NCBI RefSeq assembly: GCF_002177135.1 | Contig: NZ_MWPH01000002.1 | Location: forward strand, 62,001-126,000 | Reading direction: 5' to 3' | From: Natronolimnobius baerhuensis | GTDB lineage: Archaea > Halobacteriota > Halobacteria > Halobacteriales > Natrialbaceae | Length of the DNA: 64,000 nucleotides | Shown here: positions 7,349-48,948 of the stretch, piece after piece | Layout: each line of letters begins with the position of its first letter | How positions within the stretch are numbered: the first letter of the stretch is position 1 | Translations under genes and position numbers: made by a program | The notes under the pieces: generated by a model | Database searches by the model: none | Seen by the model: the letters and a program-made list of their open reading frames with translations, nothing else | Told to the model about the DNA's origin: nothing

Positions 7349-8327
7349 CTGCGATCTGTGATGGTTCTGGAAGATCCGTTCCGATCTCGTCGATTTTCTG
7401 TGCGACCTCGAGCGCCCGGAGCCCGTCGCTGACGGTCACCTCCGGTATACTTTCCGAACTGACGGCGTCGAGAAACGACTCGAGTTCCCTTGCGAGTGGC
7501 TCTTCACCGTAAATTTGTGGCTGTTCGATGGTGCTCATCTCGCGATACAGCGCTCGCCCCTGATCTTCGAGATACTCCGGCATCGAATCTCGGTGAATAT
7601 TGATCGACTGGTTGTTGTAGTCGAGTTTGACGAGGCACTCTTCGGCGGTGATATCGAGCGTTCGAGACGTTTGCTGTGTCAGCCGACTCGCCGTCAGCGA
7701 TGCCATCATGCCCGAGTCGAACTCGAGCAGTCCCGTGGCGTGTTTGTTCCCGTAGACGCCCACGCTCTGGATTGTAGCCGGCATCTCGCCGAGCAGCATG
7801 AGGATGATGTCGATGTCGTGGATCATCAGGTCGATCACGGCACTGTCCGCGATGTAGCGGTCTGGTGGCGGGCCGAGACGCCTCGACGTGATATCGATCA
7901 CGGTCAACTCGTCGAGAAACTCCTGGAGAGCGACGACCGCGGGATTGAAGCGCTCGACGTGTCCGACCTGGACGACTTCCGTCGATTCCTTCGCCTTCGT
8001 GAGGAGTTTGTACCCGACGTGGAGTTCGTCGACGACCGGTTTCTCGATCATGATCCCGATGTCCGTCTCGAGGCATTTGACCGCGAGATTGTAGTGATGA
8101 ACCGTGGGAACGACGATAGAGGCAGCGTCGATGGAGTCAAGTAACTCCTCGAGGTCCAGTGCCTTCGTACTGTACTCGTTGGCGACCTCTTCGGCAAGCG
8201 ACCGGTCATAGTCACAGATGCCGACGAGATTCGCGGACGGGAGGTTGTTGTATACTCGTGCGTGGTGTTGGCCCATTTTGCCGACGCCGATGACGCCGAC
8301 ATCGATTTGGGGAGTCTCTGTTGTCAT
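7341..8327 (-). CDS. Gfo/Idh/MocA oxidoreductase, WbpB-like UDP-sugar 3-dehydrogenase
   Basis: 328 aa. The N-terminal Rossmann domain has GVIGVGKMGQHHARVY (residues 11-26). The EKP motif appears as MIEKPVVDE (about 92), characteristic of Gfo/Idh/MocA enzymes, followed by VGHVERFNPAV. The C-terminal domain has the IHDIDIILMLLGE histidine region (about 170). Next to a DegT aminotransferase, a hexapeptide acetyltransferase and a UDP-sugar 6-dehydrogenase, the most likely reaction is oxidation of C3 of UDP-GlcNAcA to the 3-keto sugar before amination, as by WbpB. It follows the aminotransferase gene after a 27-bp gap, the only non-overlapping junction in this part of the operon. Confidence 0.85.
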   Translation of the reverse strand: MTTETPQIDVGVIGVGKMGQHHARVYNNLPSANLVGICDYDRSLAEEVANEYSTKALDLEELLDSIDAASIVVPTVHHYNLAVKCLETDIGIMIEKPVVDELHVGYKLLTKAKESTEVVQVGHVERFNPAVVALQEFLDELTVIDITSRRLGPPPDRYIADSAVIDLMIHDIDIILMLLGEMPATIQSVGVYGNKHATGLLEFDSGMMASLTASRLTQQTSRTLDITAEECLVKLDYNNQSINIHRDSMPEYLEDQGRALYREMSTIEQPQIYGEEPLARELESFLDAVSSESIPEVTVSDGLRALEVAQKIDEIGTDLPEPSQIADD

Positions 8328-8354: not shown

Positions 8355-9440
8355 TCAGGTGAGGTACTGTGTGATCACCGTCGAGATTTGAGCGATTTCT
8401 GCGTCTGAAACCGAGGGGTGGACGGGAAGCGAGAGGACGTCCCGTGCCGCTTGCTCTGCTATGGGGGCGTCGGCGTCGATCTCGTCGTAGGCAGGCTGGT
8501 CGTGAATGCAGGTGGGATAGTAGACGCCGCTCCCGATATCGTGGTCGGCAAGGTGGTCCGCGAGGGCGGTGCGGTCGTGCGAGCGGACACGAACGGTGTA
8601 CTGATGGAACGCGTGTTTCGCCGGTGGCGATTCGACCGGAAGCACGAGATCCGTGTCCGAGAGTCCGGCGGAGAGTCGGGTGGCATTTTCCCGACGCCGG
8701 TCGACGAACCCGGGCAGCCGCTCGAGTTGAACACGACCGATTGCCGCTGCAAGACTGGTCATACGAAAGTTATACCCGACGGTAGAGTGTTCGTAGGTGC
8801 CAGTTTGCTCGCGTCCGTGATTGATGAACTGCCGCACACGCTCTGCAAGTCGAGGTTGGTCCGTCAGGACGATTCCACCTTCTCCTGTCGTCATATTCTT
8901 TGTCGGATAGAACGAGAAGCACGCTGCGTCGCCGAACGTTCCGACGGGTTGGCCATCGTACCGTGCCCCGTGGGCCTGCGCTGCATCCTCGATGAGTGGA
9001 ACCTCGAGGTCGTCGGCAAGTTCGACAAACGCGTCCATCTCTGCCGGGAGTCCGTAGAGGTGGACAACGATGATCGCATCAACCTGTGTTTCGGTCGCGA
9101 CGTCTCTGGCAGAGTCGGGATCGAGGTTATACGTTGTCGGATCGATGTCCGCAAACACCGGTTCGGCACCGACGTGCTTGATTGCATTCGCAGTCGCAAT
9201 GAACGAGAATGGTGTCGTGAGAACTCGATCACCGACACCGATTCCAAGGCTGGAAAGTGCTGCGTGGAGTGCAGTCGTCCCGTTCGACGTTGCGATGCCA
9301 TGAGCAGTGTCACAGTACGCCGCGAATTCGCGCTCGAACTTGCGAACCTCGGGGCCGTCGGCGATTGTCCCGCTCCGGATGACGTCTCCAACCCGTGTAA
9401 TCTCTGTCTCATCGAGAAGTGGCTGTGCGATAGTGATCAT
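8355..9440 (-). CDS. DegT/DnrJ/EryC1/StrS aminotransferase, WbpE-like
   Basis: 361 aa, the normal family length. [18 protein letters not shown] (about 51-68) is the PLP-phosphate loop, [10 protein letters not shown] and [11 protein letters not shown] (about 149) hold the cofactor Asp, and Lys181 in [13 protein letters not shown] is the Schiff-base lysine. NYNFRMT-type binding is seen as [20 protein letters not shown]. It would transfer an amino group from glutamate to the 3-keto UDP-sugar made by the neighbouring oxidoreductase. Its start ATG overlaps the stop of the acetyltransferase gene by 4 bp (ATGA). All key residues are present. Confidence 0.92.
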
Positions 9441-9985
9441 TCCATACGATTCTCTCCTTGCAGTTGGTCGGGAAGCGGTTCATGTGTGGCCGGCGCGCCA
9501 ATCGCTAGACACTCCGCGGGAACGTCTCGCGTCACGATTGCACCAGCAGCGATGAACGAGCCCCGACCGACCGTCACCCCCGGCAGAATAGTTGCGTTCG
9601 CTCCGACCGAAACGTGGTCCTCGAGTGTCGGCCCGCGGAGATCTACCTCGGTACGTGTGGGCATCGGATCATTCGTCAGAACTGCGTTGGGCCCCATGAA
9701 CACGTTGTCCCCAATGCTCGTGTTCGTTGGTATGTAGACGCCTGTCTGTAAGCGTACGTTCGATCCAATGTCGGTATTTCCGTCGATAACTGTGTTTGTA
9801 CCGATGAGGGCGTTGTCTCCAAGGGTGGTGAACTCCCTGATAACTGCATTGTGACCTGTCTGTAGATCGTCACCGCCGACAACGTCGTTATAGATGACCG
9901 TACCGCTTCGAATCGTTGTATTATCTCCCAGAACTGGTTCGCGTGAGTCCGGGTCATATTCGTACCCAATTGTTGCCCCGTCCAT
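9437..9985 (-). CDS. hexapeptide-repeat acetyltransferase, WbpD-like UDP-sugar N-acetyltransferase
   Basis: 182 aa. Nearly the whole protein is a left-handed beta helix of hexapeptide repeats: [44 protein letters not shown] and [15 protein letters not shown] loop ([13 protein letters not shown]) holds the usual acceptor region, and [20 protein letters not shown] marks the C-terminal acetyl-CoA side. As in WbpD it probably N-acetylates the 3-amino group of a UDP-amino-uronic acid. It is the first gene of the ten-gene minus-strand operon; a TATA-like box lies about 65 nt upstream of its ATG. Confidence 0.9.
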
Positions 9986-26050: not shown

Positions 26051-27859
26051 TCACTCGACAGTGACACTCTTTGCGAGATTCCGTGGCTTGTCAATCGAGC
26101 GCTCGAGTAGCGTCGCCGCGTGATACGACACGAGTTGCAACTGGACGTTCGCGAGCAGGCCCGCCCAGACAGGGTGGGTGTCGGGAACCGACAGATGCGC
26201 GTCGGCGACGTCGACGAGCGGATGATCCGCCGGTCCGACGGCGACGATAGGTGCGCCTCGAGACTGAGCCTCGATTGCGTTGGTCTTCGTCTTGTCGTCG
26301 GAGCCGTCGGTGTAGACCGCAAACAGGGGCGACTTGTCGGTCACGAGCGCGAGCGGGCCGTGTTTGAGTTCGCCCGAGGCGAAGCCTTCGGCGTGCTCGT
26401 AGGTGATCTCCTTGAACTTCAGCGCCCCCTCGAGGGCGACCGAGTGCCCGAAGCCGTTCCCGATGAAGAAATAGGAGGTGCTATTCATGAACTCCCGAGC
26501 GAGTACTCTCGCTCGAGACGTCTCGAGGACGGTGTCGACGTGCTGGGGGAGGTCCTGAAGCGTCTCGAGGAGGTCCTCGCGATCCTCGGCGGGGGTTGCC
26601 TCGGGGACGTCCGCTGCGAGTCGCTGGGTCAACAGGGTCAGCGTGACGGCCTGTGAGGAGTAGGTCTTCGTCGCGGCGACGCCGACCTCCGGGCCGGCGC
26701 GGATGTACAGTGCGTTGTCGGCCTCGCGGGCAGCGGTCGAGCCGACGACGTTCGTGACGGCAAGCGTCTGTGCGCCGTGGCCGGCTGCCGTTCGAACGGC
26801 ATCGAGCGTGTCTGCAGTCTCGCCACTCTGGGTGACTGCGACGACGAGGGTTCCCTCGTCGACCGGGCCTGCCGCTGTCTCGTACTCGCTCGCACGAATG
26901 ACGTCGGTTGGGAGTCCCGCGGCCCGCAGCAGTTGGCCGGCGTACATCGCCGCGTGGTAGGAGGTCCCGCAGGCGACGAACTGGACGGCGTCGACGTTCT
27001 CGAACGTCCCCGGCTCGAGGCTGTCGAACGAGACCGTGCCGTCCTCGACACGACCCTCGATAGTGTTTGCGAGCGACGTCGGCTGGGAGTGAATCTCCTT
27101 TTCCATGTAGTGGTCGTACTCGCCCTTCCCGGCGTCTTCCGGGTCCCAGTCGACGGTGTCAACTGAGCGCTCGAGTGGCTCGCCTTCGAGGTTGGTAATT
27201 CGGTAGTTGTCAGGCTCGAGGACAACGATATCGCCGTCCTCGAGGTAGATCACCTGGTCCGTATGATCGAGGAAGGCTGGGACGTCGCTGGCGAGGAACC
27301 ACTCCTCGTCGTCGAGTCCGAGCACGAGCGGCGAGCCCTTGCGTGCCGCGTAGACACGCTCTTCGCCGTCGACGATGGCGGCGATAGCGTAGCTTCCCTC
27401 GAGCGTCTCGACGGCCTTGCGGACCGCCTGCTCGGTGTCGTCGGTCTCCTGACGATACTCGTCGATGAGGTGTGGGATGACCTCGGTGTCAGTGTCGCTG
27501 TTGAACTCGTGGCCCTGTGCTTGTAACTGGGTTCTGAGTTCGTCGTAGTTGTCGATGACACCGTTGTGGACGACGGCAACGTCGCCTGCGGTATCCGTAT
27601 GCGGGTGTGCGTTTTCGTCGGTTGGTGGACCGTGCGTACTCCATCGCGTGTGGCCGATCCCCATATTGCCGTGGGGCTGGCGCTCGAGCGAGGACTTGAG
27701 GTCGTCGACCTCGCCCGAACACTTGTGGACTTTGACGCCAGAGCCGTTCTGGACGGCGATTCCCGCCGAGTCATAGCCACGGTACTCGAGGTTCTCCAGT
27801 CCCGACAGCAGCGTCTCCGCGGCGTCACCGTGACCGATGCGGGCGATGATGCCACACAT
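26051..27859 (-). CDS. glmS: glutamine-fructose-6-phosphate aminotransferase (isomerizing)
   Basis: 602 aa, full length. The glutaminase domain begins MCGIIARIGHGDAAETLLSG with catalytic Cys2, and has LEYRGYDSAGIA (about 27) and HTRWSTHGPPTDENAHPH (about 75). Two SIS domains follow: VACGTSYHAAMYAGQLLRAA (about 296), VAVTQSGETADTL (about 343) and YFFIGNGFGHSVALEGALKF (about 463), ending in the family C-terminus KPRNLAKSVTVE. It forms glucosamine-6-phosphate from fructose-6-phosphate and glutamine, the first step to the UDP-GlcNAc used by the glycan clusters of this window. It is monocistronic. Confidence 0.96.
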   Translation of the reverse strand: MCGIIARIGHGDAAETLLSGLENLEYRGYDSAGIAVQNGSGVKVHKCSGEVDDLKSSLERQPHGNMGIGHTRWSTHGPPTDENAHPHTDTAGDVAVVHNGVIDNYDELRTQLQAQGHEFNSDTDTEVIPHLIDEYRQETDDTEQAVRKAVETLEGSYAIAAIVDGEERVYAARKGSPLVLGLDDEEWFLASDVPAFLDHTDQVIYLEDGDIVVLEPDNYRITNLEGEPLERSVDTVDWDPEDAGKGEYDHYMEKEIHSQPTSLANTIEGRVEDGTVSFDSLEPGTFENVDAVQFVACGTSYHAAMYAGQLLRAAGLPTDVIRASEYETAAGPVDEGTLVVAVTQSGETADTLDAVRTAAGHGAQTLAVTNVVGSTAAREADNALYIRAGPEVGVAATKTYSSQAVTLTLLTQRLAADVPEATPAEDREDLLETLQDLPQHVDTVLETSRARVLAREFMNSTSYFFIGNGFGHSVALEGALKFKEITYEHAEGFASGELKHGPLALVTDKSPLFAVYTDGSDDKTKTNAIEAQSRGAPIVAVGPADHPLVDVADAHLSVPDTHPVWAGLLANVQLQLVSYHAATLLERSIDKPRNLAKSVTVE

Positions 27860-30264: not shown

Positions 30265-30408
30265 ATGACGAAGCAACTCAAGGTATCCGACGCCGTGTAC
30301 GACGACCTTGACGAACTCAAGGACGAGGAGGGGCACACGAGTTTCGACAGCGTACTCCGCACGCTCCTCCTCCACTACCGTCACGTCCAACCCAACGACC
30401 AAGAATGA
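30265..30408 (+). CDS. small antitoxin-like protein upstream of tnpB
   Basis: 47 aa: it begins MTKQLKVSDAVYDDLDELKD and continues with HTSFDSVLRTLLLHYRHVQP. The strand-helix-helix pattern with KQLKVSDAVYDDL resembles ribbon-helix-helix or VapB-type antitoxins that accompany haloarchaeal tnpB genes. The stop overlaps the tnpB start in ATGA, so translation is coupled. It may repress the element's promoter, by analogy. The divergent tnpA remnant starts 96 bp upstream on the other strand. Confidence 0.75.
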   Translation: MTKQLKVSDAVYDDLDELKDEEGHTSFDSVLRTLLLHYRHVQPNDQE

Positions 30409-32565: not shown

Positions 32566-32934
32566 GTGTGATCGCGGTTCTGTTGCGGTCGAGGTGTGGT
32601 GGGTAGGGTGGTGATGGTGGTGGGAACCTCGACCGCAGGAGAGACGACGCGAACAGAGTACTTCATTATAGAGCGCTACAGGTCCGCTTAACAATGGTTT
32701 AAACCACTGAGGCGGGACGGTTCCGAATTTTCTCGAGAACTACCAGTAGCGAGACTCGAGCGGCCTGTTTCGCGCCGATGTAGCCGCTGCAACGGTTTAT
32801 TCGCGCTATAGTAAACCGCCCCCATGGAGTGGGTGTACTCAGCGGCACGCCCCACGGATGCGGGTGTTCCGAGACGACCACTCGCCATCACACGCAGTCG
32901 TGTGATGGCCACGAGACAACAGGCAACGTTCACC
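32566..32934. promoter_or_regulatory. divergent promoter region
   Basis: 369 bp between the wHTH gene (minus) and the UDP-sugar dehydrogenase (plus). TATA-like sequences are CTATAATG on the minus strand near 32665 and CTATAGTA at 32806-32813 on the plus strand. The latter would place a transcript start near 32838 and a leader of about 100 nt before the ATG at 32935. No small gene is seen. Confidence 0.4.
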
Positions 32935-34335
32935 ATGACCACGACACTCACCAATACGGACCCTCGAGCGGACGACGGAGAGCACGAGCAAAACGCCCGC
33001 GACTCGACGACGGGTGGAACGACGCTGGAACACACCGGAGAGGTAGTAGCGCGGGATGCGACTGTCTGCGTCGTCGGCCTCGGCTACGTTGGACTCCCGC
33101 TTGCGGTCGGGTTCGCACAGTCGAACTACCGCGTCATCGGCTTCGACATTAACGATGAGACCGTCGACAAACTTCAGTCGGGCATCGATACGACCGGCGA
33201 CCTCTCGAGTGAGGCCATTTCCGACGACGACATCTCGTATACGTCGAATGCAGGCCAGATCAGTGAGGGAGACTACGTCATCATCACTGTCCCAACGCCA
33301 ATCGACGACGACGACCAGCCGGACCTCAGCTACGTCGAGCAGGCCGGTCGAACCGTCGGCTCGAGAATGGACCCCGGAACGACGGTCATCCTCGAATCGA
33401 CCGTCTACCCGGGAACGACCGAGGAGGTCCTCGTCCCCGCGCTCGAAGACGCCTCCGACCTGACCGCAGGCGAGGACTTCTTCGTTGGCTACTCGCCCGA
33501 GCGGGCGACACCGGGCGATCCCGAGCACGGCCTCGCAGACGTCATCAAAGTCGTCAGTGGCCAGAACGAGAAGGTGCTCGAGGACGTGGCGACGCTGTAC
33601 GAATCGGTCGTCGACGCGGGCGTCCACCGTGCGCCGTCGATTTCGGTTGCAGAAGCCAGTAAGGTCGTCGAGAACGCCCAGCGTGACGTAAATATCGCGT
33701 TCGTCAACGAACTCTCGATGGCCCTCGAGCGAATGGACGTCGACGCACACGCGGTACTCGAGGCCGCGGGCACGAAGTGGAACTTTCACGACTACCGGCC
33801 CGGGCTGGTCGGCGGCCACTGTATTCCGGTGGATCCGTACTTCCTGGCCCATCGCTCGGCCCGCGAAGGGTTCGAACCCGATCTCGTGAAAACGGGTCGG
33901 GCGGTCAACGAATCCGTCCCCGAACACATCGCAGACCTGACGATCAAGGCACTCAACGACTGCCACAAGACGCTTCGAGACAGTCGCGTACTGGTTCTTG
34001 GCCTGTCGTACAAACCGGGCGTTGGCGACATTCGAAGTTCGAAAGTCGCTGATGTCGTCGACGAACTCGCGGAGTACAGCGTCGATGTCGAGGGATTCGA
34101 CCCCTTCGCTGACACCGACGCGGTCCAAGACGCGTTCAGCCTCGAGACCCAGGAGTCGCTGTCCTTCGAGGGCATCGATGCGGTTCTGCTGGCGACGCCC
34201 CATGCCGAGTTCGAACAGCTCGATCTCGAGGTCGTCGCTGCCGAACTCGAGGACTGTCCGGCACTCATCGACGTGACTGGCACGTTCGAGGAAGCAACTG
34301 CAGCAGACGCCGGGTTCGTCTATCGGAGGTTGTGA
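32935..34335 (+). CDS. UDP-N-acetyl-hexosamine dehydrogenase (TviB/WbpO/WecC type)
   Basis: 466 aa. A 40-residue acidic N-terminal extension precedes the NAD fold CVVGLGYVGLPLAVGFAQS (45-63). VPTPIDDDDQPDLSYVEQA (about 119) follows, then VVENAQRDVNIAFVNELSMA with the catalytic Lys243/Asn pair, Cys295 in RPGLVGGHCIPVDPYFLAH, and LGLSYKPGVGDIRSSKVADV in the UDP domain. It makes a UDP-HexNAc uronic acid with two NAD. It heads a second plus-strand polysaccharide cluster (DUF354, GT4, membrane protein) and is clearly distinct from the dehydrogenase at 5945-7348. An ATG at 32908 is an alternative start. Confidence 0.9.
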   Translation: MTTTLTNTDPRADDGEHEQNARDSTTGGTTLEHTGEVVARDATVCVVGLGYVGLPLAVGFAQSNYRVIGFDINDETVDKLQSGIDTTGDLSSEAISDDDISYTSNAGQISEGDYVIITVPTPIDDDDQPDLSYVEQAGRTVGSRMDPGTTVILESTVYPGTTEEVLVPALEDASDLTAGEDFFVGYSPERATPGDPEHGLADVIKVVSGQNEKVLEDVATLYESVVDAGVHRAPSISVAEASKVVENAQRDVNIAFVNELSMALERMDVDAHAVLEAAGTKWNFHDYRPGLVGGHCIPVDPYFLAHRSAREGFEPDLVKTGRAVNESVPEHIADLTIKALNDCHKTLRDSRVLVLGLSYKPGVGDIRSSKVADVVDELAEYSVDVEGFDPFADTDAVQDAFSLETQESLSFEGIDAVLLATPHAEFEQLDLEVVAAELEDCPALIDVTGTFEEATAADAGFVYRRL

Positions 34336-34512: not shown

Positions 34513-35577
34513 ATGCGTATTATCGTCACGATCCAACACCCCGGGCACGTCCACTTCTTTCGGCACCCGATTACGGAGTTAACGGCACGCGGCCACGAGG
34601 TCCACGTCTTCGCTCGAGAGAACGACGTGGCAATCGATCTCCTCGAGGCCTACGACATCGACCACGAGGTGCTGGCCGGCGAATCCGGCTCGCTGGTCTC
34701 GCTGGCAACAGTCCAGGCCACCTACGAGGCGCGACTGTTGCGGCGAGCACGTCGGATCGATCCGGACGTGATTACGGCAATCGGCGGCGTCGCCGCGGCC
34801 CACGTCTCCTCCATACTGCGGGCCCAAAGCATCGTCTTCTACGACACTGAGCACGCGACGCTCATCACGGCGCTTGGCTACCCGTTCGCAGACGTGATCT
34901 GCACGCCCGAGTGCTACCGCGAGGAGATCGGGTCGAAACAGGTGACGTATCCGGGCTACCACGAACTCGCCTACCTTCACCCGGACCGCTTCGAGCCCGA
35001 GTCGTCGATCCGCGAGTCAGTCGGACTCGAGCCGGACGATTCGTTCGCCGTCGTCCGTCTCAGCAGTTGGAAGGCGTCTCACGACGTCGGTCACGGCGGG
35101 TTCGACGACCCACAGGAACTCGTCGACCGACTCGAGGAAGTCGGACTCGAGGTGTTGCTCTCTGCGGAAGGCGAGCCACCGGCCGCACTCGAGGCGTACC
35201 AGTTCTCGACGGCCCCAGACCGGATGCACGACCTACTCGCCGAAGCCGACGTCGTCCTGAGCGAGGGGGCAACGACTGCGGCGGAGGCTGCCGTTCTTGG
35301 CACGCCAGCAGTCTACGTGAACCCGCTCTCGCTCGGATACACGCGGGAACTCGAGGCGGAGTACGGCCTGCTGTTCGAGTACAACGGCGAAAATCGCCAC
35401 GTTCGTGGCCTCGAACGAGCCGTTTCGGTCGTCAAGCAACCCGCTGATGAGTGGCGCGACCGACGCGAACGATTGCTCGAGGAACGCCTCGACGTCACGG
35501 CGTTCGTCGTCCGCCAGATCGAATCGCTCGCACAGCCACAGATGGCTGCCGGAACGCCAGCGACCAACACAGGGTAA
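34513..35577 (+). CDS. DUF354 family protein, second copy
   Basis: 354 aa. It starts MRIIVTIQHPGHVHFFRHPI, matching the DUF354 N-terminus of the gene at 3833-4876. Shared motifs are TYPGYHELAYLHPDRFEPES, FAVVRLSSWKASHDVGHGG, APDRMHDLLAEADVVLSEG and TTAAEAAVLGTPAVYVNPLS. The 177 bp before it show no gene; ATG at 34513 has a GGAGGTGA ribosome-binding site 6-10 nt upstream. It is followed after 2 bp by a GT4 gene. A role in polymer assembly is inferred from the repeated linkage of DUF354 with UDP-sugar dehydrogenases in this window. Confidence 0.88.
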   Translation: MRIIVTIQHPGHVHFFRHPITELTARGHEVHVFARENDVAIDLLEAYDIDHEVLAGESGSLVSLATVQATYEARLLRRARRIDPDVITAIGGVAAAHVSSILRAQSIVFYDTEHATLITALGYPFADVICTPECYREEIGSKQVTYPGYHELAYLHPDRFEPESSIRESVGLEPDDSFAVVRLSSWKASHDVGHGGFDDPQELVDRLEEVGLEVLLSAEGEPPAALEAYQFSTAPDRMHDLLAEADVVLSEGATTAAEAAVLGTPAVYVNPLSLGYTRELEAEYGLLFEYNGENRHVRGLERAVSVVKQPADEWRDRRERLLEERLDVTAFVVRQIESLAQPQMAAGTPATNTG

Positions 35578-35579
35578 CG

Positions 35580-36572
35580 ATGAAGGTACTGCAACTGGTC
35601 ACGTCGCCGCGACCGTTCTTCGACCAGCAGGTCGACGTCCTCGAGGACCGCGGCGTCGACTGTACAGTGCTCGCCGTTCCCGGTGCGTACGACGGTGACT
35701 CCCCGCGCTCGCCGATGGACTACGTGCGATACTATCCAGAGATACTCAACACAGTCCGCGAGACGGAGTACGACCTCGTTCACGCGAACTACGGGCTCGT
35801 CGTGCCGTTCGCACTCGCACAGCCGACCCGCCCAGTCGTCACGACACTGTGGGGGACCGACCTGATGAGTGATATCGGCTGGCTCCGTTCCCTCAGTCGG
35901 TTCGGCGCACGCCGTTCGGACGCGACGGTCGTGCCGAGTCCGGCGATGTCCCAGCAACTCGAGGCCGACCACGAACTGATTCCGTTCGGCGTCGATACCG
36001 ACCTGTTCCGCCCGATTCCACAGGACGAGGCGCGCGAGCGCGTCGGCTGGGAGACGGACCGGCCGGTCGCACTGTTTCCGTACGATCAGACCCGGGCAGT
36101 AAAGGACTTCTCGCGAGCCACGCGACTCGTCGACCGGGCCGAAACCGACCTCGAGTTGCGGACCGTCTCCGGCGTCGGCCACGCGGAAATTCCCTACTAT
36201 ATGAACGCCAGCGACGTGTTGCTGGTCACTTCGCGTCGCGAAAGCGGGCCGATGGTCGTCAAGGAGGCCGCAGCGTGTACGCTCCCGGTCGTCTCGACCG
36301 ACGTCGGCTTCGTCCGCGAAACGCTTGCCGGCGTGGACAACTGCGTCGTCAGCGACTCGGATTCCATCCTCATCGATGGGCTCGAGCGAATCGTCGCCGA
36401 CGGTGGCCGAGCAAATGGCCGCGACGTGATCGATGGACTGGGATTCGAGGCGATGGGCGACCGGCTGCTCGAGGTGTACCAGACGGTGTTGGACCGACGC
36501 GCTGGCGGAGGCGAACAGTCCGATAGAGACCACAATCCAGAGCAACAGACGGGGGTAGACCATGGTATTTAG
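35580..36572 (+). CDS. glycosyltransferase family 4
   Basis: 330 aa, starting MKVLQLVTSPRPFFDQQVDV. The N-domain has YDLVHANYGLVVPFALAQPT and LWGTDLMSD; the C-domain has NASDVLLVTSRRESGPMVVK followed by EAAACTLPVVSTDVGFVRET (about 207-245), equivalent to the GT4 E-x7-E donor site. The DUF354 stop lies 2 bp before the ATG and the next gene overlaps by 11 bp, so it is part of one transcription unit. Donor and acceptor are unknown. Confidence 0.88.
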   Translation: MKVLQLVTSPRPFFDQQVDVLEDRGVDCTVLAVPGAYDGDSPRSPMDYVRYYPEILNTVRETEYDLVHANYGLVVPFALAQPTRPVVTTLWGTDLMSDIGWLRSLSRFGARRSDATVVPSPAMSQQLEADHELIPFGVDTDLFRPIPQDEARERVGWETDRPVALFPYDQTRAVKDFSRATRLVDRAETDLELRTVSGVGHAEIPYYMNASDVLLVTSRRESGPMVVKEAAACTLPVVSTDVGFVRETLAGVDNCVVSDSDSILIDGLERIVADGGRANGRDVIDGLGFEAMGDRLLEVYQTVLDRRAGGGEQSDRDHNPEQQTGVDHGI

Positions 36573-38544
36573 CAGACTAACTGACGTGCGTCCGCTTCGT
36601 CTCGATACGGTCGCAGCAATCGTCGGACTCGGACTCGCAATCGCACTGCTTCCGCTACAGCTGTTAGCGTCGCAGGTGTATCTCAACACGGTTCCGATTG
36701 TCCTCGGGACCGCGTGTGCGTTGTACCTCCTCTCGCTGTATCAGGAGGACGACGCTCGGACGCTGCCGACGCTGCCCTCGAGCGTGACGATGGCGCTGCC
36801 GGGTATCGTCCTCGTTGCACTCGCCGGACTCGTCGCGCTTGGTATCGTCCAGGAGACGCGGACGCCGCTCTTTTTCGGAGCAGCGAGCGTCGTCGGGACG
36901 CTGGTCGTCGGACAGATTCTCTTTGCGAGCGACGAGGATCTCCATCCGGGAGTGCTGGTGCTCCAGATCGTCCTGTTCGCGTTTATTTTCCGGTTTACGG
37001 CGCTGTACGTGACGCCGGGATACATCGGGATCGACATCTGGACGCACGCGGAGCTGACGCGGTCGATCCTGACCGAACAGTCCCTGAGCGGGATTGCAGA
37101 CGACAAACACTACGCCGCGCCGTTTTACCACCTGCTGGTGGCTGCATCGGCGCTCGTGTACGACGTTCCAATCCGGCTCGCAGTGTATCTCTCCGTCGGC
37201 CTCGTGATGCCGCTGTCGATCCTGTTGGTGTATGCAACCACAAACCTGCTCGTCTCCCCACGGTGGGCGACCCTCTCTGCGGCGTTGTATGCCCTCGCCA
37301 GCCACGTCTCGATGTGGGGTATCCACCCGATCCCGACGAGTCTGGGGCTGGTCTTCTTCCTCGGCATGCTGTACGCGCTCATCCGCGTGATGCGCATCGA
37401 GTACACCATCCGTGACTTCTCGTTGCTGTTGCTGCTGAGCGTCGCCGTCGTCCTCACTCACCAGGTGTCGACGTTCATCATGCTCGTCCTGTTGCTGGCC
37501 GCGTTCGTCGCCCAACTCGTCTTCGTTGTCGGCCCGCTCGGACTCACCCGACTCGACGCGAGCGTCTTCCGGGCGAAAAAGCCGGTCAACCTCGTCGGCC
37601 TCGTCGTCTTCAACGTCGGGCTGACCATCTTCGCCTGGTCGCTGACACCCTACCGACAGGACTCGTTCTTAGAGACCATCCTGAGTTTCTTCACCCAGAC
37701 GCTCGAGGAGAGTGCCGGCTTCCTCAACATCGCGAGTGGGTCGACTGCAGGCGATGAGGACGCCGCCGAAGCGGCTGCGTCGCCGACACTACTCGAGCAA
37801 CTCGTTCCCTACATCGACGTCCTTGGCTTCCTGTTCCTGCTGGGGGCGACGTTCGTCGGCTGTCTGTACGTCGTCCACCGACGCCGTGCCGAGCAGTCGG
37901 TGTTTACGCTGTTGCTCGCCTCGGCGTTCATGCTGGTGTTCGTTCTTGGCTTCCCGATGTTCGGCATCCACAACTTCATCCCGACGCGCTGGTTCGCGTT
38001 CCTGTATGCGCCGATGGCTATCCTCGGCGCAATCGGGCTGCGAACGCTCAGTGCGAATCTGAACCCAGCGATCATCACCGCAGTCCTCTTACTGTTCGCG
38101 CTGGCCTTCCCCGGCGCGATGATCTTTGCGGCCGAGAGCAACATCGACAACCCGGTCTTCGACGGCCAGCACGAGCGACTCGCCTACGACGAACCCGACC
38201 TTGCGGCCGCCGAGTCGATTGCCGAGATTACCGGATCACCAAGCGGGAGCGAGATTCGACCAGACCAGCAACTCCACACGGATCATCCGTATCAGACTGT
38301 GATCACCAGAACCGGCGCGTATCCGTCGACAACAACCGCGACGGTCCCTGACGGTGGTGTTGCAGACCACGACTACACGGTCTATCGTTCTGCACAATCG
38401 TCCGATGCGGTCTACTTCACCGACGAAAACGGTGAGGGACGAATCGAACAGATTGACTCGAGCCAACTGTGTCGCAGCGATCAGGCGACCGTCTACACGA
38501 ACGGCGACGTGACGCTGTGTACGCCATCGCCGGCCTCGAGCTAA
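36562..38544 (+). CDS. large polytopic membrane protein, possible GT-C glycosyltransferase or polymerase
   Basis: 660 aa with about 14 predicted membrane helices over residues 15-545, then a soluble C-terminal domain of about 115 residues (from NPVFDGQHERLAYDEPDL). The first long loop after helix 5 has GYIGIDIWTHAELTRSILTE (about 153-172), acid residues placed as in GT-C enzymes that use polyprenyl-phosphate sugars. HQVSTFIMLVLLLAAF and FGIHNFIPTRWFAFLYAPMA are further conserved-looking loops. It overlaps the GT4 gene by 11 bp. A role as polymerase, ligase or lipid-sugar transferase is inferred; I do not assign a family. Confidence 0.7.
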   Translation: MVFSRLTDVRPLRLDTVAAIVGLGLAIALLPLQLLASQVYLNTVPIVLGTACALYLLSLYQEDDARTLPTLPSSVTMALPGIVLVALAGLVALGIVQETRTPLFFGAASVVGTLVVGQILFASDEDLHPGVLVLQIVLFAFIFRFTALYVTPGYIGIDIWTHAELTRSILTEQSLSGIADDKHYAAPFYHLLVAASALVYDVPIRLAVYLSVGLVMPLSILLVYATTNLLVSPRWATLSAALYALASHVSMWGIHPIPTSLGLVFFLGMLYALIRVMRIEYTIRDFSLLLLLSVAVVLTHQVSTFIMLVLLLAAFVAQLVFVVGPLGLTRLDASVFRAKKPVNLVGLVVFNVGLTIFAWSLTPYRQDSFLETILSFFTQTLEESAGFLNIASGSTAGDEDAAEAAASPTLLEQLVPYIDVLGFLFLLGATFVGCLYVVHRRRAEQSVFTLLLASAFMLVFVLGFPMFGIHNFIPTRWFAFLYAPMAILGAIGLRTLSANLNPAIITAVLLLFALAFPGAMIFAAESNIDNPVFDGQHERLAYDEPDLAAAESIAEITGSPSGSEIRPDQQLHTDHPYQTVITRTGAYPSTTTATVPDGGVADHDYTVYRSAQSSDAVYFTDENGEGRIEQIDSSQLCRSDQATVYTNGDVTLCTPSPASS

Positions 38545-39656: not shown

Positions 39657-40235
39657 TCACCGAAGCCGAGACCGCACGATTCGCACACAGTCGCTGGCGA
39701 TGGGTGCGCCGTCGTAAAGCCAGAGTGCAACGACGGCAACGACAACCCAGAGTTGGGCGAGAAGCGCACCCGACAGGCCGCCGCTGAGCAGCTGGTTTGT
39801 GTACCGGACGAAGTAGATGACGAAGTGATCGAGAAAGCCGCCGTGGTCATCCGTTGGCGGCGATTCAAGCGGCCAGAGGATCACGCGTAACTCCGGGTCG
39901 CGGCCCATTCGCATCGGGTTGAGGACATCGGTCACGAGGTGGGAGCCATACGCCAGTGAGAACGCCCCCGTAAGGAATCGACCGTCCCGAAAACGGGCTG
40001 TGATCGCGAAGACGGCGAGACAGACGAACGGAACGACGACAATCGAATGCCCAATCGCATAGCCGGTGTCGGTGATGCCGAATGTCCACGCGAGCGGCTT
40101 GTCGATCAGATCGGGCAGTTGCGAGCCAACAGCAACCGCAATCGTCTCACGCGTCGTCGGTGGTCGCCGCCAGGTGACGTGAACCAGCAGCGAGTAACAC
40201 ACGTACGCGACGACGAGATGTTCCCACGGCCACAT
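39657..40235 (-). CDS. YdjM/DUF457-type membrane-bound metal-dependent hydrolase
   Basis: 192 aa with four to five membrane helices. The N-terminus WPWEHLVVAYVCYSLLVHVT has the conserved His. GSQLPDLIDKPLAW (about 37-50) and YAIGHSIVVVPF (about 59) hold the Asp and His residues that define this metal-dependent membrane family, and GSHLVTDVLNPMRM (about 97) completes the site. The start ATG overlaps the DUF1616 stop by 1 bp (TAATG), so the two are cotranscribed. The substrate is unknown. Confidence 0.85.
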   Translation of the reverse strand: MWPWEHLVVAYVCYSLLVHVTWRRPPTTRETIAVAVGSQLPDLIDKPLAWTFGITDTGYAIGHSIVVVPFVCLAVFAITARFRDGRFLTGAFSLAYGSHLVTDVLNPMRMGRDPELRVILWPLESPPTDDHGGFLDHFVIYFVRYTNQLLSGGLSGALLAQLWVVVAVVALWLYDGAPIASDCVRIVRSRLR

Positions 40236-41230
40236 TATGCTCCCTCCATCGGAAGCTGAATCACGCGGTAGGCGTTCTCAGCCGTGGGGTCTTCCGGCGG
40301 CTCATCGTCGTAGAGCAACAGCGTCAACCGAAGCTCCGAATCAGACATCGTTGGCGTCACATCAAGCGTCTGCTGGATCGTCTCCCCGTCGCCAATCGTC
40401 GTTGTCTGACGATCCAGCTCATCGGCCTCATGGACCGTGACATCGCGTTCGTCTCCATCGTCGTAGCTCACGTCCTCGAGCATGACGACAGTTGTGTACG
40501 TCCGCTCGTCGTGTTCATTGTTCGTGATCGTCGTCTCGAGTTCCTGTGGTCCATCGCCGTCGTAGGCCGACTCATAGATCGTCTCGACATCCCCATCGAC
40601 AGCGTCGGTTTCAATCGCGAACTCGGTGTAGCCATCGTGCTGTGGTGGGTTGGCAACCGCAAAGCCAACAGCCCCAACCACGAGCACCAGTCCAACGACG
40701 ATTGCGACGTTGTACGCTCGCGTACTGGACTGGTCGTAAAGCGTCGACCGTGGGGTAAAAAACGGTATCATCGGTCGCACAGCGGGTGTGTATCGACGTT
40801 TCGGTGTACATCGGTAGCGTGCCACAATTGCGATGAGGGAACACAGGACAGTCACAGTTGCAATCCCGAAGAGTACCGGTTCGACCGTCACACCCCTGGG
40901 GGTCACGGACGCAAGAAGGGTGATCGTCGGAACGAGGGCAACGCTAAAGACGATTGACAGGACAAATCGCTCAATCGACTCGAGGCCACCACTGACGAGC
41001 AAGGGATTTCCGAGTCCAGTTTTCCCTTCATCGAACGACTGATACTTGTCGTTTGGTTCGTCAGGAAAGAGCGCTGAAACGAGTGCATACCCGGGAAGAA
41101 AGCAAATAAGCGGTATTGCGAGCAGTATTCGTCCAGTACCACTAATACCGGAAATGATCCCAAACGTGAGAGTGCCAGCAATGACAATGACCAGTGCCAG
41201 ATCTAAGAACCACCAGTTGGTATCGCTCAT
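40235..41230 (-). CDS. DUF1616 family membrane protein, second copy
   Basis: 331 aa from the ATG at 41230, which removes 61 residues of AT-rich, non-conserved upstream frame. Four N-terminal helices include ISGTGRILLAIPLICFLPGY and ALVSALFPDE, then SIERFVLSIVFSVALVPTIT and NVAIVVGLVLVVGAVGFAVA. The C-terminal half is a non-cytoplasmic beta domain with ELETTITNNEHDERTYTTVV and TLLLYDDEPPEDP. The architecture matches the protein of 10600-11640. A perfect 20-bp palindrome lies 65 bp upstream of the start. Confidence 0.85.
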   Translation of the reverse strand: MSDTNWWFLDLALVIVIAGTLTFGIISGISGTGRILLAIPLICFLPGYALVSALFPDEPNDKYQSFDEGKTGLGNPLLVSGGLESIERFVLSIVFSVALVPTITLLASVTPRGVTVEPVLFGIATVTVLCSLIAIVARYRCTPKRRYTPAVRPMIPFFTPRSTLYDQSSTRAYNVAIVVGLVLVVGAVGFAVANPPQHDGYTEFAIETDAVDGDVETIYESAYDGDGPQELETTITNNEHDERTYTTVVMLEDVSYDDGDERDVTVHEADELDRQTTTIGDGETIQQTLDVTPTMSDSELRLTLLLYDDEPPEDPTAENAYRVIQLPMEGA

Positions 41231-41294
41231 ACGATCAGCAGTTGGAGTCTCATGGGGTTTATTATCGCCCCAGTAAGCGCCGTATTGAGGGGGT

Positions 41295-41314
41295 CGTCTG
41301 ACGGCCGTCAGACG
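41295..41314. promoter_or_regulatory. perfect 20-bp palindrome, candidate operator
   Basis: CGTCTGACGGCCGTCAGACG is its own reverse complement and lies 65 bp upstream of the DUF1616 gene start at 41230. The rest of 41231-41610 is AT-rich (40-50 percent GC by eye), contains promoter-like sequence for both divergent genes, and has no small gene. Confidence 0.5.
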
Positions 41315-41610
41315 GGTATCTATCAGAAAAACTATACAGGTATCATCTATATACTCGACGGCTGTTTTGAACTGTCCCAGTAGCTGCAACAGACCGAAAT
41401 ACAAGATGATCATTTACAATAATACTACATCAGATACCATGCGAATAAACACCCTCACACATAATCTATATGGGAGTTACAGACCCTAATAGGCGAATAA
41501 ATAGAGTTTTAAAATGGCTGAAAAACATTCATCTGGGCATTAAAATCTGGTAAATTGAACCGTCACGAAATACACTGTATCTATGCTTTATTACCCACCT
41601 GTGGATAGGG

Positions 41611-42245: not shown

Positions 42246-42785
42246 TTACACGAAACTCGGAACGAACCAGACGACTGTTGTCGTAACGACCGTCACCGTA
42301 AGCGCAGTTAGTAGCGACACCGACACCAGCGTGAGCAACGCAAACAGCAAGACGAGCGAAATCGTCCCGAAAACAGCTGCCGAGAGTGTTGTCCCCTCCT
42401 CGTCCATCTGCGTCATCGAACGCTCGACGACCCCCTGTGTCTCATCGAACTCGATCTCACCTGCCTCCGCGAGTGCTGGCAAACGATCTTGGTGCAAGCG
42501 TTCGTGAACGCCAGCCCACGTGTCGAGTGGCGGCTGTGCCGGTGTAATCAACTCATCAGTGATCTCATCGACAGTTGCTGGTAACTGCATCTCCTCGAGG
42601 GTGTCACACAGTTCACCGTCGGAGTCAGGAAGAAATGCGTCGACATCGCCACCCCCTGCTGTAGACGTGCCCTGCAGATTGCGGTAAATAGGCACGTCTG
42701 GTCCGGAAGATGCCTCAGACCTTTCCTGGCGCTCCTCGGGGGGAGTGTCCGATGAAGAGCGCAACCAAGCCGGCGTCAGACGCAT
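42246..42785 (-). CDS. divergent DUF7344-like winged-helix protein with two C-terminal membrane helices
   Basis: 179 aa from the ATG at 42785. The middle part, ELITPAQPPLDTWAGVHERL then HQDRLPALAEAGEIEFDETQ and GVVERS, corresponds to the second half of DUF7344, including the segment equivalent to YIPLYQSHLTKLDDAGVI in the neighbour. The first half (GELCDTLEEMQLPATVDEIT) is much altered. Two membrane helices end the protein. The recognition part looks eroded, so DNA binding is uncertain. The two genes end 32 bp apart, tail to tail. Confidence 0.65.
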   Translation of the reverse strand: MRLTPAWLRSSSDTPPEERQERSEASSGPDVPIYRNLQGTSTAGGGDVDAFLPDSDGELCDTLEEMQLPATVDEITDELITPAQPPLDTWAGVHERLHQDRLPALAEAGEIEFDETQGVVERSMTQMDEEGTTLSAAVFGTISLVLLFALLTLVSVSLLTALTVTVVTTTVVWFVPSFV

Positions 42786-42928
42786 ATTCCGGGCTACCCC
42801 TTCTTTGCATATAAGTATTTTCACGGTTTAGCCGGCTCAAACGATTTCAAAGCCTCTTAGAGTGGATTTTAGCGGCAATCTACACGTATAGAGAAAACTA
42901 GCTCGATTAACAGGTGTATACAGACAGA

Positions 42929-44641
42929 TCAAATAGTCTGACTCGTCGATTTCAGTGGTCGAAACCAGCGCTGGACAGCAGGATCAGCAACGTCCCAGGA
43001 ATCGAGCCAGCCACGAAGGTCCGTGATTCTGAGTTTATGTCGGGCTGGCAACGAGTGGACGGACTCGAGGTCAGCCAAAAGCCGCTCATCGAAGTCGTGT
43101 CGGTCGAAGAGTGCTTCGCGGTTCGGCCACGGCGGCTCGAACGAGGACAAAAACGGCGTCTTCCGACGCACGAAGCCTTCGATCTCATTGAGTAGCGCCG
43201 CATCGTGCGGTCGATCCGGCGGCCGATGGCGAAGAATCTCACTGTCGAGTTGCTCGCAGGCCTCGAGGAACGTTGCCGTCGTCCGGTGTTTTGGCGGCGT
43301 TCGAAGGTGCCAGTCGATCAACTCGCGATCCGTCGCCAGAAACGACGTGAGGAAGTGATCCGACAGCTGGGTGTGGAACGGTATCGAGGGCTGGTTTGCG
43401 ATGCCACAGCACGTCAGCGTGTTCTGGACGCCATCAGCCCGCGCTTGGCAGGCGTCGAACTCGTCGCCGACGGCCTCTCTGACGAACGATTCCGGATCGA
43501 CGTCGAACGTCGTTCGCTCGGTGAGTTCGAGGCTTGCCTCACGACTGTAGCCGAACTTCTCGAGGAGGGTTTCGACGGGGTTCGGATCAGCCTCGAGTCG
43601 GCCAACCGGAATGCGTTTGTCGAGAACATCGACGGTCTCACGCGCGGTGAAGTGCCCGCGGAAGAACGTATCACAGAGCAGTCCGTGGTACATTGTCTCG
43701 ACACCGATTTCGTCGGTATAGCCGGCGTGGTGGATGTGCAAGGACTCCTTGATACCCTGTGAGTAGCGAATCTTCGACTCGTCGGGGCGAAGATAGCGTT
43801 CGTCCGGCGGAAACGCGGTGTGGGAAGCGCCGTACTGCGCTGCGAGGTGTTTCGCCCCGGCCACCTCCTGTGCAGCGGGCGACCCCACGGTATAGCCGTG
43901 TTCAATCCCCTCGACCTGCGAGAGGATAATCCGTGAGTCATAGCCCGCCGAAAGGAGGACGCCTTTGTGTCCGGGAAGCCGTGAACGACGCTGTAGCGCC
44001 CGCTCGAGGCGACTCGCCAGTTCCGAAACGTAATCGAACTCCGTGGGTCGGTACACGAACCGGTCGAGCGACGTGATCGTAGCTGACTCGAGTCGACTAT
44101 CAATTGGCAGTCGGCGAAGTTCGTCGACCGCCGTCTTCTCGCCGAGGATGACCCCGAGATGCAGGTACTCGAGGATGCCCGCTCGGTTTGGCGTTGGCTC
44201 TGGAATTGTCTCTCCGACGGCAGCGGCGTCGGTACCGAAGACTCGAGGCCCGGGGTCGTCGGTGTAGAAACACTCTCTCGAGCGAACGGGATCCGTCGCG
44301 ACGAACGTTTCGTCGGCTGCCTCGTGGTCGAGGACGACCAGATATGAGCCGTTGAGGTCCCGAAGGACGCCGTGGCCGCGGGTTTCGTACTGCTCGACGA
44401 GCCACTGTGCCGTATTCGACGTCGCCTCGACATCGGAGTCGGGGACGTAGGCTTCGCCCCAGACCACACAACAGCCCCTGTCGTCGCTATACTGTGCACT
44501 CCAGCCGGGTGCGCCGAGGTCGTCGTCTCTGATCCCGACCGTGAGCTGGGGGCCAGAACAGACGACGTCGAACTCGTCGCTCGATCTGAAGCGGTCGAAC
44601 TGCTCGCGATCACCGAAAACGCCGAAGAGTTCCCTATGCAT
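42929..44641 (-). CDS. asparagine-synthase-like protein lacking the N-terminal Cys
   Basis: 570 aa. The C-terminal ATP-pyrophosphatase domain has the P-loop GVLLSAGYDSRIILSQ (227-242, SAGYDS for SGGxDS), then YTVGSPAAQEVAGAKHLAAQ and the His/Lys region. The N-terminal 200 residues have the class-II glutaminase fold (CCVVWGEAYVPDSDVEATSN, LRDLNGSYLVVLDHEAADET, DPVRSRECFYTDD) but begin MHRELFGVFG, so Cys2 is absent. Glutamine-dependent ammonia production is therefore unlikely; ammonia or another amine could serve. In polysaccharide clusters, relatives amidate uronic acids, a plausible role here. Confidence 0.85.
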   Translation of the reverse strand: MHRELFGVFGDREQFDRFRSSDEFDVVCSGPQLTVGIRDDDLGAPGWSAQYSDDRGCCVVWGEAYVPDSDVEATSNTAQWLVEQYETRGHGVLRDLNGSYLVVLDHEAADETFVATDPVRSRECFYTDDPGPRVFGTDAAAVGETIPEPTPNRAGILEYLHLGVILGEKTAVDELRRLPIDSRLESATITSLDRFVYRPTEFDYVSELASRLERALQRRSRLPGHKGVLLSAGYDSRIILSQVEGIEHGYTVGSPAAQEVAGAKHLAAQYGASHTAFPPDERYLRPDESKIRYSQGIKESLHIHHAGYTDEIGVETMYHGLLCDTFFRGHFTARETVDVLDKRIPVGRLEADPNPVETLLEKFGYSREASLELTERTTFDVDPESFVREAVGDEFDACQARADGVQNTLTCCGIANQPSIPFHTQLSDHFLTSFLATDRELIDWHLRTPPKHRTTATFLEACEQLDSEILRHRPPDRPHDAALLNEIEGFVRRKTPFLSSFEPPWPNREALFDRHDFDERLLADLESVHSLPARHKLRITDLRGWLDSWDVADPAVQRWFRPLKSTSQTI

Positions 44642-44883
44642 TGTCATTGGTTCCACTCACTCCACAAGCGACTCGGCGTCCACGCTCAGCCCTCGGGTAC
44701 ACTCGAGCGGACTGCACTCGCGGACGCGTCACTATCACTCCATCCGGAGTACCAACCAATAACTATGGTATCAATAAGCCTCGAGAACGGTGTTTTCAGC
44801 GGTTTCAGTGAACCGCAGCGTCGACAGTGTCGTCACCTATTCGCTCTATAATAATGGGGTCATTGCCAGAACAATCGGGCACG

Positions 44884-46245
44884 ATGTCACAGCACCGTTC
44901 GACACGACGACGGTTCCTCGCACTCTCGAGTGCGGCTGGAATCACTGGTATCGCAGGCTGTGCAGACCGACTCAACTCGGTTACCGACCGCTCCGACGAT
45001 GACGACGAAACCAACGCCGGCAACGAAAGCGACTCGGAAACCGACGCAGATATCGACGATGGCGCAGGCCCGGCCGCGCCCGTAGACGGGGTTCCAGACC
45101 TCGAAACCGAGTACAACAGCCGCGAGCAGTACCGCCAGCCGGGCGACCAGCTGGACGACTTCAGCGATCTCGACGCCTGGGAGGTCGTCCAGGGGTCGGG
45201 CGAAGCAGACGAGGACATCGTCTTCGACGGCGACCAGAGTTTCCGACTCGAGTCCGATGGCGAAGCAAACATCGTTGCCCAGCGCAGTCTCGAGGGCGAA
45301 GACCTGACGGAGATTGACCTGTCGTTTGCCGTTCGAACGACGACACCGCAGAACATTACGATCAATCTGCGACTCGTCGATCAGTTCGGGAGCGCGCGCG
45401 TGCACTCGCTGCGCGAGATTACCTATCGCGAACCCGATGTCGGCTGGTTCCGAGCGAGTCCCGGCGTCTTCGAGCAAGACGACTACGAGCCCGCAATGGA
45501 CCACCTCGACCGCCTCGAGATACAGGTACTACACTCGATGGACGAGGCCGAGGTCTGGGTCGACGACCTGCGGATGCACGACCGGCCCGACCAGGGCTAC
45601 GTCATGCTGGTCTGGGACGACGGATTCACCGACTACTACGAGACGGCGTCGCCGCTGCACGACGAATTCGGTTTCCGAACGGTCCAGGCACCCGTTCCCC
45701 GCTGGACCGAGCAGGGCCGTGACGGAATTATGTCCACCGCCGAACTGCTGGAACGCCAGGATGAAGGCGACCAGATCGTCGTCCACGGAACCCACGACCC
45801 GATCCACGAGTACGAAGACGAGGAGGCCGTCGAAACCAGGCTCCGACAGGACAAACGCTGGTTCATCCAGAACGGGTTCGAGGGCGCGAACTACATCGTC
45901 TACCCGCACAACAGCTTCGACAAAACCAGCCTCGAGCACACGGCACAGTATCACTACTGCGGCGGGTTCAATCAGGCCGGGGACGTCAACACGACGAGCG
46001 TCTACGGCTTCGATCCCCTCGTGCTTCCGCGGACAATCGGCCACGACCTCGATATTTCGAAGCGCTGTGTGGATCTCGCCGCCGAACACAACCAGTGTAC
46101 CATCCTGAACTTCCACGCTTTCGACCAGGACAACACGATGCCCGCGGACGACTACGAGGAACTCCTCGAGCACATCGACGACGCTGATGTCGAGGTCATC
46201 ACGTTCGACGACCTCTGGGAGATGCGCACTGAACCGCACTATTGA
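44884..46245 (+). CDS. Tat-type lipoprotein with polysaccharide deacetylase (NodB-like) domain
   Basis: 453 aa from the ATG at 44884. The signal STRRRFLALSSAAGITGIAG has twin arginines and the lipobox IAGC. An acidic linker and a beta-sandwich domain (DDFSDLDAWEVVQGSGEADE, about 90-225) precede the deacetylase domain. That domain has the DD motif in YVMLVWDDGFTDYYETASPL (about 240), the HGTH motif in QIVVHGTHDPIHEYED (about 297) and the FHAFD strand near the end. It would act outside the membrane on an acetylated glycan. The protein of 17036-18928 has the same plan but has lost these motifs. Confidence 0.85.
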   Translation: MSQHRSTRRRFLALSSAAGITGIAGCADRLNSVTDRSDDDDETNAGNESDSETDADIDDGAGPAAPVDGVPDLETEYNSREQYRQPGDQLDDFSDLDAWEVVQGSGEADEDIVFDGDQSFRLESDGEANIVAQRSLEGEDLTEIDLSFAVRTTTPQNITINLRLVDQFGSARVHSLREITYREPDVGWFRASPGVFEQDDYEPAMDHLDRLEIQVLHSMDEAEVWVDDLRMHDRPDQGYVMLVWDDGFTDYYETASPLHDEFGFRTVQAPVPRWTEQGRDGIMSTAELLERQDEGDQIVVHGTHDPIHEYEDEEAVETRLRQDKRWFIQNGFEGANYIVYPHNSFDKTSLEHTAQYHYCGGFNQAGDVNTTSVYGFDPLVLPRTIGHDLDISKRCVDLAAEHNQCTILNFHAFDQDNTMPADDYEELLEHIDDADVEVITFDDLWEMRTEPHY

Positions 46246-48718: not shown

Positions 48719-48948
48719 GAGGACTGTAACTCGCCAATCTCAAAATTGGCTTTCTGGGAGTCTGTTTTTCGAAACGCTCCGCTGGCCCAATACATTCAGA
48801 TAGTTATCACGATACTCAGCATCTACCGTCTGCCCTTCCATGATTGGGCGGGCGAACTTGCGTTACTCGAGACTGCATCCTGTTCTGTACGTCGCAGTAC
48901 AGCACTCGGACATTCACATTTATGCCAACTGACGAGAGTACTTCGCCA

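Follow-up and report, generated by a model that had tools for sequence, protein, structure and literature searches.

The window analysed here, a 64,000-nucleotide stretch of the Natronolimnobius baerhuensis genome, carries within a glycan region a gene for an asparagine-synthetase-like protein that lacks the glutaminase Cys, which raises the question of what such an enzyme could make there. We regard it as moderately probable that this protein, hereafter the ligase, is an ATP-dependent amide ligase of the asparagine-synthetase fold that acts in the synthesis of amino-uronic-acid surface glycans on the C6 carboxylate. The gene is read from the minus strand and encodes 570 aa (MHRELFGVFGDREQF). 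Its ORF begins at 44656, but the sixth codon of the frame, M6 at 44641, is the conserved start; since relatives begin at this Met, 42929–44641 was taken as the correct gene span (Table 1). The open frame and the recurrence of the same start in relatives show that the gene is neither a frameshift nor a chance frame. Low scores against Pfam (Asn_synthase, 19 bits with a cut-off of 21; GATase_7, 14.4 bits with a cut-off of 25) and NCBIfam (TIGR01536, 41.4 bits versus a cut-off of 267.1) mark the ligase as a very divergent relative. Within its own genome, a protein search (E 0.001) returned a single copy, plus other ORFs of the Asn_synthase family.

Table 1 Features of the ligase gene and its surroundings, in window positions
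Feature	Position	Strand	Remarks
Second nucleotide-sugar dehydrogenase, UDP-ManNAc-dehydrogenase- or WbpA-like	5945..7348	-	Over TIGR03026 cut-off
Oxidoreductase, nearest UDP-GlcNAc 3-dehydrogenase	7341..8327	-	217 bits, below cut-off 450
PseC/DegT-like aminotransferase	8355..9440	-	Below cut-offs; WbpE-like by context
Hexapeptide acetyltransferase	9437..9985	-	WbpD-like by context
GlmS (GlcN-6-P synthase)	26051..27859	-	TIGR01135 over cut-off; MCGII start
Coupled nucleotide-sugar dehydrogenase, TviB-like	32824..34335	+	Over TIGR03026 cut-off
DUF354 protein	34513..35577	+	Weak glycosyltransferase-like matches
Group-1 (GT4-type) glycosyltransferase	35451..36572	+
660-aa protein, perhaps membrane glycosyltransferase	36562..38544	+	Weak PMT_2 match in one search only
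DUF1616 protein	40235..41413	-	Conserved neighbour
DUF7344-like protein	42246..42824	-	Directly downstream of ligase; match below cut-off
Cys-less asparagine-synthetase-like protein	42929..44641	-	570 aa; read as amide ligase
Synthetase (PP-loop) domain	43007..44062	-	Residues ~194-545
HGLLCD	43670..43687	-	Residues 319-324; D324 (78/78) aligned to AsnB Asp351
Family signature ESLHIHH	43727..43747	-	Residues 299-305; E299, H302, H304 in 78/78
PP-loop SAGYDSR	43931..43951	-	Residues 231-237; G233, D235, S236, R237 in 78/78
Degenerate class-II glutaminase-like domain	44072..44641	-	Residues ~1-190; from AsnB alignment; GATase_7 below cut-off
Polysaccharide deacetylase, divergently transcribed	44827..46245	+	Start resembles Tat lipoprotein signal by eye

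The N-terminal domain was compared in a family alignment of 78 distinct rows, the window's protein included. Neither the nucleophile position nor those next to it hold a Cys in any of the 78, which bears out the initial annotation's remark that MHRELFGVFG stands where MCGIFG would be expected; a single row, L045, has a Cys in the N-terminal stretch, and it occupies position 9. Residue 1 is Met in 74 rows, residue 2 is Asn, His, Lys or Arg in 76, and residue 4 (Glu or Gln) and F6-G7 are constant in 78/78. Cys1 of Escherichia coli AsnB aligns with residue 3, an Arg in the window's protein, and the AsnB Asn74 column holds W61 of the ligase (W/F/Y/V in 78/78 and aromatic in 77/78). Eleven family rows were aligned with E. 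coli AsnB; all of them replace Asn74 and all have a non-Asp residue in the Asp98 column (11/11 each). The Arg49 column is also replaced, yet an Arg lies one column off in most rows shown, so that this loss is uncertain. With the Cys absent and two more glutamine-site residues replaced, the glutaminase domain of the family is very probably catalytically dead. The ATP half, by contrast, is kept, as had been noted for SAGYDS: the loop (LLSAGYDSR in its wider context) follows SxGxDSR with D, S and R in 78/78, and G233, D235, S236, R237 and the Mg-binding Asp D324 are invariant, as are E299, H302, H304, H319, D438, W444, H445 and L446.

The missing Cys had been taken as a feature of one protein, but it is fixed across a haloarchaeal family that lies within a broader Cys-less archaeal clade. 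Among 391 Halobacteria genomes, 149 gave a ligase match at E 1e-10 and 121 a full-length one; the other 28, with weak hits only, were omitted from the profile counts as not full-length. In a family-profile search over 392 genomes of the phylum, scores dropped from 747 bits for the lowest full-length relative to 122 bits, and only five genomes outside the order matched, all at ≤122 bits. A contig scan for close relatives yielded 19 loci, all haloarchaeal as judged by contig title, and no relative was found on viral contigs. In a tree of 31 rows, built quickly without bootstrap and containing two long branches, the ligase family was recovered as a single clade (SH-aLRT 100), nested within a larger clade that comprises 23 archaeal rows (SH-aLRT 99). 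Among the rows listed, no MCG-type start occurs in this larger clade, which suggests that the Cys was probably lost before the haloarchaeal family arose. We found no description of the family among the open-licence papers searched; the available part of the EvoMining paper does not treat it, and the mentions of asparagine synthase in the available parts of two papers proved irrelevant to it.

The initial annotation had also pointed to the window's two uronic acid pathways, a statement that holds at gene level, as the dehydrogenases at 5945–7348 and 32824–34335 both exceed the TIGR03026 cut-off. For the latter, the nearest equivalog is TviB (UDP-GlcNAc C6 dehydrogenase; 363.5 bits, below the cut-off of 592), and its true start may lie further inside the frame, as many remote homologues align from residue ~60–78. 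This TviB-like dehydrogenase (E 1e-95) occurs in 140 of the 391 genomes, with a distribution close to that of the ligase: 120 genomes have both genes, 1 has the ligase only, 20 the dehydrogenase only and 250 neither (Fisher p 4e-78, with shared ancestry ignored), in a table built by hand-copying genome handles and positions from the match lists. The one ligase-only genome (G309) is 88% complete, and its ligase gene lies at a contig end. Among the matches listed, the two genes share a contig in at least 114/121 genomes and are less than 20 kb apart in at least 109/121 (median 9.4 kb), the distance being measurable in all but 7 of the 121; outside the window's own family, at least 43/53 of the listed cases are under 20 kb. 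Given that the N. baerhuensis genome has four dehydrogenases over the cut-off in 3.9 Mb, the chance of finding any dehydrogenase within 20 kb is ~4%. The contrast is provided by the 5945–7348-type dehydrogenase (E 1e-110), which is present in 251/391 genomes and, among the matches listed and judged by eye, lies less than 20 kb from the ligase in at least five (G141, G213, G291, G376 and G379), and hits to it lie within ~11 kb in as many as five further loci (L055, L065, L067, L070 and L093). Of the two uronic acid pathways, only the one at 32.8 kb is coupled so tightly to the ligase.

The idea of a uronamide synthase or amine ligase, already raised in the initial annotation, gains genomic support from this phylogenetic profile, next to the lost glutaminase site and the intact ATP site. 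As for WbpS, an association with uronic-acid sugar biosynthesis is seen, the dehydrogenase accompanying the ligase in 120/121 genomes. A near-perfect pairing over 391 genomes points to a specific substrate class. From it, surface sugars of haloarchaea would be expected to carry amides, of which no report was found in the titles and abstract openings of the open-licence papers listed. Our proposal builds on the loss of the glutaminase site, the intact ATP and Mg residues, the fold family and the dehydrogenase coupling. In the pathway that we infer, the TviB-like dehydrogenase would convert UDP-HexNAc to UDP-HexNAcA, an assignment that follows its nearest model, TviB, at a score below the cut-off. 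The ligase would then adenylate the C6 carboxylate of HexNAcA, either on the nucleotide sugar or later on a lipid-linked glycan, and a nitrogen nucleophile would displace AMP to form the amide. With the glutaminase site lost, the nitrogen would not be released from glutamine within the ligase; the nucleophile could be free ammonia, with a uronamide as the product, or some small amine, for example an amino acid or an amino sugar. Counting against an amide ligase are the 20 of 140 dehydrogenase genomes without a full-length ligase, four of six loci with a second synthetase (below) that have no clear glycan gene in ~39 kb, and scores far under the cut-offs of curated amidotransferases and cyclases.

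Glycan amidases of the asparagine-synthetase fold are known to take their nitrogen from glutamine, and the WbpS-type uronate amidotransferases, unlike the ligase, retain the N-terminal Cys and use glutamine. A glycan-linked synthetase unable to do so would have to draw on ammonia directly or ligate an amine. Like the ligase, WbpS, WbqG and eps_aminotran_1 (TIGR03108) belong to the asparagine-synthetase family and are encoded in amino-uronic acid loci; according to the available part of one report, they are needed or proposed for C6-carboxylate amidation, and deletion of the asparagine-synthase homologue WbpS in Porphyromonas gingivalis abolished the uronamide (PMC7468200). The Bordetella b-Cool locus holds an asparagine synthase gene and its product carries two HexNAcA amides, the gene responsible being unspecified in the part of the paper available (PMC12407052). 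For PesC, an asparagine-synthetase-like enzyme, ammonia can be used instead of glutamine, as stated in the accessible part of its description (PMC13060819). The ligase gave no match to TIGR03108 (cut-off 816.9 bits) at E 0.1, and 10 of 36 relatives matched it at E 0.001 (best 1.9e-8). Beta-lactam synthetase, CarA and the lasso cyclases, Cys-less members of known chemistry, use amines, which weakens a pure ammonia reading. In the archaellin glycan of Methanococcus, threonine is attached to C6 of ManNAcA, an archaeal amide on an amino-uronic acid; neither AglU of Methanococcus nor this threonine amide was found as a precedent in the open-licence literature. A bolder version of our proposal, possible but distinctly doubtful, is that the ligase is the first member of a haloarchaeal group of glycan ligases joining an amino-uronic acid to an amine-bearing unit (an amino sugar or amino acid) and so amide-bridging surface glycans, with some lineages using two enzymes, the second being an upstream Cys-less synthetase.

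The neighbourhood of the ligase, in many divergent lineages a glycan operon in which it lies immediately behind glmS, adds to the support for the proposed role. In the window's own family, the ligase sits among glycosyltransferases, the divergent deacetylase, DUF7344, DUF1616, DUF354 and the TviB-like dehydrogenase. The deacetylase is probably secreted, as its Tat-lipoprotein-like start suggests by eye, and was rejected as a supplier of free amines because it probably acts outside the cell, where ATP is absent. Among 58 loci probed by tblastn, DUF354 was found in 41, the dehydrogenase in 37 and GT4 in 37, and the gene directly upstream of the ligase was GlmS in 13 and a second synthetase in 6. 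Many of these loci are closely related and not independent; L051 (short) and L050 (the same locus as L067) were excluded. The gene calls used for the window's own family, unlike these tblastn counts, came from a crude script that misses or misplaces genes, the ligase itself being lost at 10 of the 58 loci. When 20 divergent loci were extended upstream, tblastn placed GlmS directly 5' in 12 loci and a second Cys-less synthetase there in 6. Six of the 20 contained three Wbp-type genes, for an aminotransferase, a 3-dehydrogenase-like protein and an acetyltransferase. Loci with a GlmS–ligase pair often also carry DUF354, glycosyltransferases, a flippase, GlmU and PGM. Of 10 genomes checked, 9 had a frame of GlmS length with a GATase_7 hit less than 20 kb from a ligase copy; among those hits, the family model named only the window's copy GlmS. 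GlmS-length frames with a GATase_7 hit lie at C1:501735, C1:884255, C2:89269 and C2:1258547 in the N. baerhuensis genome, which by these matches may encode GlmS more than once, with one copy at the ligase locus.

The second Cys-less synthetase directly before the ligase (L056, L058, L059, L062, L066 and L090) is ~640 aa long and has an MVGL start in most cases. At L056, L059, L062 and L090, ~39 kb contained no probed glycan gene except an uninformative one, and at L058 and L066 GlmS and GlmU hits lie at a greater distance from the ligase. Five of the six genomes carry another ligase copy.

The position of GlmS directly 5' of the ligase, with gaps of 1–154 bases in the 13 loci, suits a different reaction, in which an amino acid would provide the carboxylate and GlmS would supply an amino sugar as the amine. 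Such an aminoacyl-glucosamine ligase would give a product like the N-glycyl-glucosamine wall bridges of Halococcus; the available part of one source describes N-glycyl-glucosaminyl bridges in Halococcus morrhuae (PMC4187196), and two contigs titled as Halococcaceae MAGs (L051 and L052) carry the ligase gene. It would leave the near-universal dehydrogenase companion unexplained, however, and we consider it rather unlikely.

Departures from AsnB in the synthetase half raise the further question of whether the protein is an enzyme at all. The AsnB Glu348 column is Leu in 70/78 family rows, the window's protein included, and the Lys449 column is empty, an Arg occupying the preceding column. Given the roles of Glu348 and Lys449 in AsnB, the chemistry of the ligase may differ from that of AsnB. 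The failure to find counterparts of these two residues in the alignment would be consistent with a paralogue that is catalytically dead or regulatory, binding ATP and modulating glycan enzymes. The ATP and Mg residues and parts of the ESLHIHH and WHL motifs are nonetheless invariant in 78 rows down to ~40% identity, the pattern expected for an active site under selection, which makes a dead protein improbable.

A profile of 36 relatives matched beta-lactam synthetase (E 3.6e-6), the nearest solved structure by this measure, and asparagine synthetases in the PDB; a phmmer search of the PDB with the single ligase sequence gave no match at E 1. AF2 models were poor for the whole protein (19 rows, mean pLDDT 50) and modest for the synthetase domain (17 rows, mean pLDDT 57), and Foldseek ranked E. 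coli AsnB first for both with low TM-scores, so no active-site geometry is claimed. The profile and fold matches together include beta-lactam synthetase, AsnB and CarA and count in favour of the proposed amide ligase. In beta-lactam synthetase and CarA, the glutaminase half is present but unused, the Cys is absent and a carboxylate is adenylated. The ligase shares with them a glutaminase domain without Cys; they differ from it in using an intramolecular amine in antibiotic pathways. At the Glu348 column, which bears on their Tyr-Glu dyad, the ligase family has mostly Leu, and the models are too weak for placing the dyad.

The lasso and albusnodin-ikarugamycin cyclases (NF033535 and NF033561) are also asparagine-synthetase-like makers of amide bonds. 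Lasso cyclases act on a peptide and are encoded with precursor and protease genes, probable points of difference from the ligase. An intramolecular macrolactam or peptide-modifying ligase, akin to the lasso cyclases or a RiPP amidase, would account for the weak matches of 21 of 36 family members to the macrolactam cyclase model NF033561 (E 0.001, best 1.3e-8). The window's ligase has no match to NF033535 or NF033561 at E 0.1, and among its annotated neighbours, which cover part of the surrounding genes and exclude short ORFs, no lasso protease, precursor or B-protein gene was found. A separate lasso cyclase over the cut-off is encoded elsewhere in the same genome (L002) and, like the ligase, is Cys-less. 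We therefore hold a peptide-directed role to be very improbable. The L002 cyclase (C2 1242680–1246825, ORF 1456–3360, minus strand; NF033535, 632 bits versus 525) has a neighbour, ORF 41–877 on the plus strand, that is HPr-kinase-like by eye and has no NCBIfam match at E 1e-10; this locus is likely a haloarchaeal lasso peptide cluster.

With E. coli AsnB the ligase has in common the two-domain order, the PP-loop and the Mg-binding Asp, and it differs in the replaced Cys1, Asn74, Asp98 and Glu348, the Lys449 gap and the uncertain Arg49. An ammonia-dependent asparagine synthetase is scarcely credible, and free asparagine synthesis by the ligase is unlikely: the fold and ATP site would allow it, but the TIGR01536 score is far under the cut-off, the Glu348 column is replaced, another synthetase ORF of the same genome (L003) has an AsnB-like GADE motif and the ligase gene tracks a sugar dehydrogenase. 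As the ligase does not share all the tested features with AsnB, WbpS, beta-lactam synthetase or the lasso cyclases, we set it apart from each of them.

Several further loci and genes were observed in passing. The window contains a TnpB-family RNA-guided endonuclease within the glycan region (30405–31682, plus strand; NF040570, 135 bits versus 100), an ACR3 arsenite efflux transporter (23175–24356, minus strand; TIGR00832 over cut-off) and, adjoining the glycan genes, a family 4 glycosyl hydrolase (48844–50256, plus strand; NF011657 alpha-galactosidase over cut-off). Outside the order but in the same phylum, a Cys-less synthetase starting MPGLTGII comes after a WecB epimerase, a gene resembling UDP-ManNAc dehydrogenase and what by eye is a flippase (region L149:1237–8922), so that a different branch of the clade shows a comparable pairing with an amino-uronic acid pathway; the sole other such locus examined, L148, showed no such pairing by eye. 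Two MVGL-type Cys-less synthetases (L150:3140–4963, plus strand, and 10027–11853, minus strand) have an acetyltransferase and a gene resembling histamine N-monooxygenase (433 bits against a cut-off of 700) nearby, and the ORFs that separate the two synthetases look by eye like a transporter set. The two synthetases are perhaps the amide ligases of a haloarchaeal hydroxamate siderophore.
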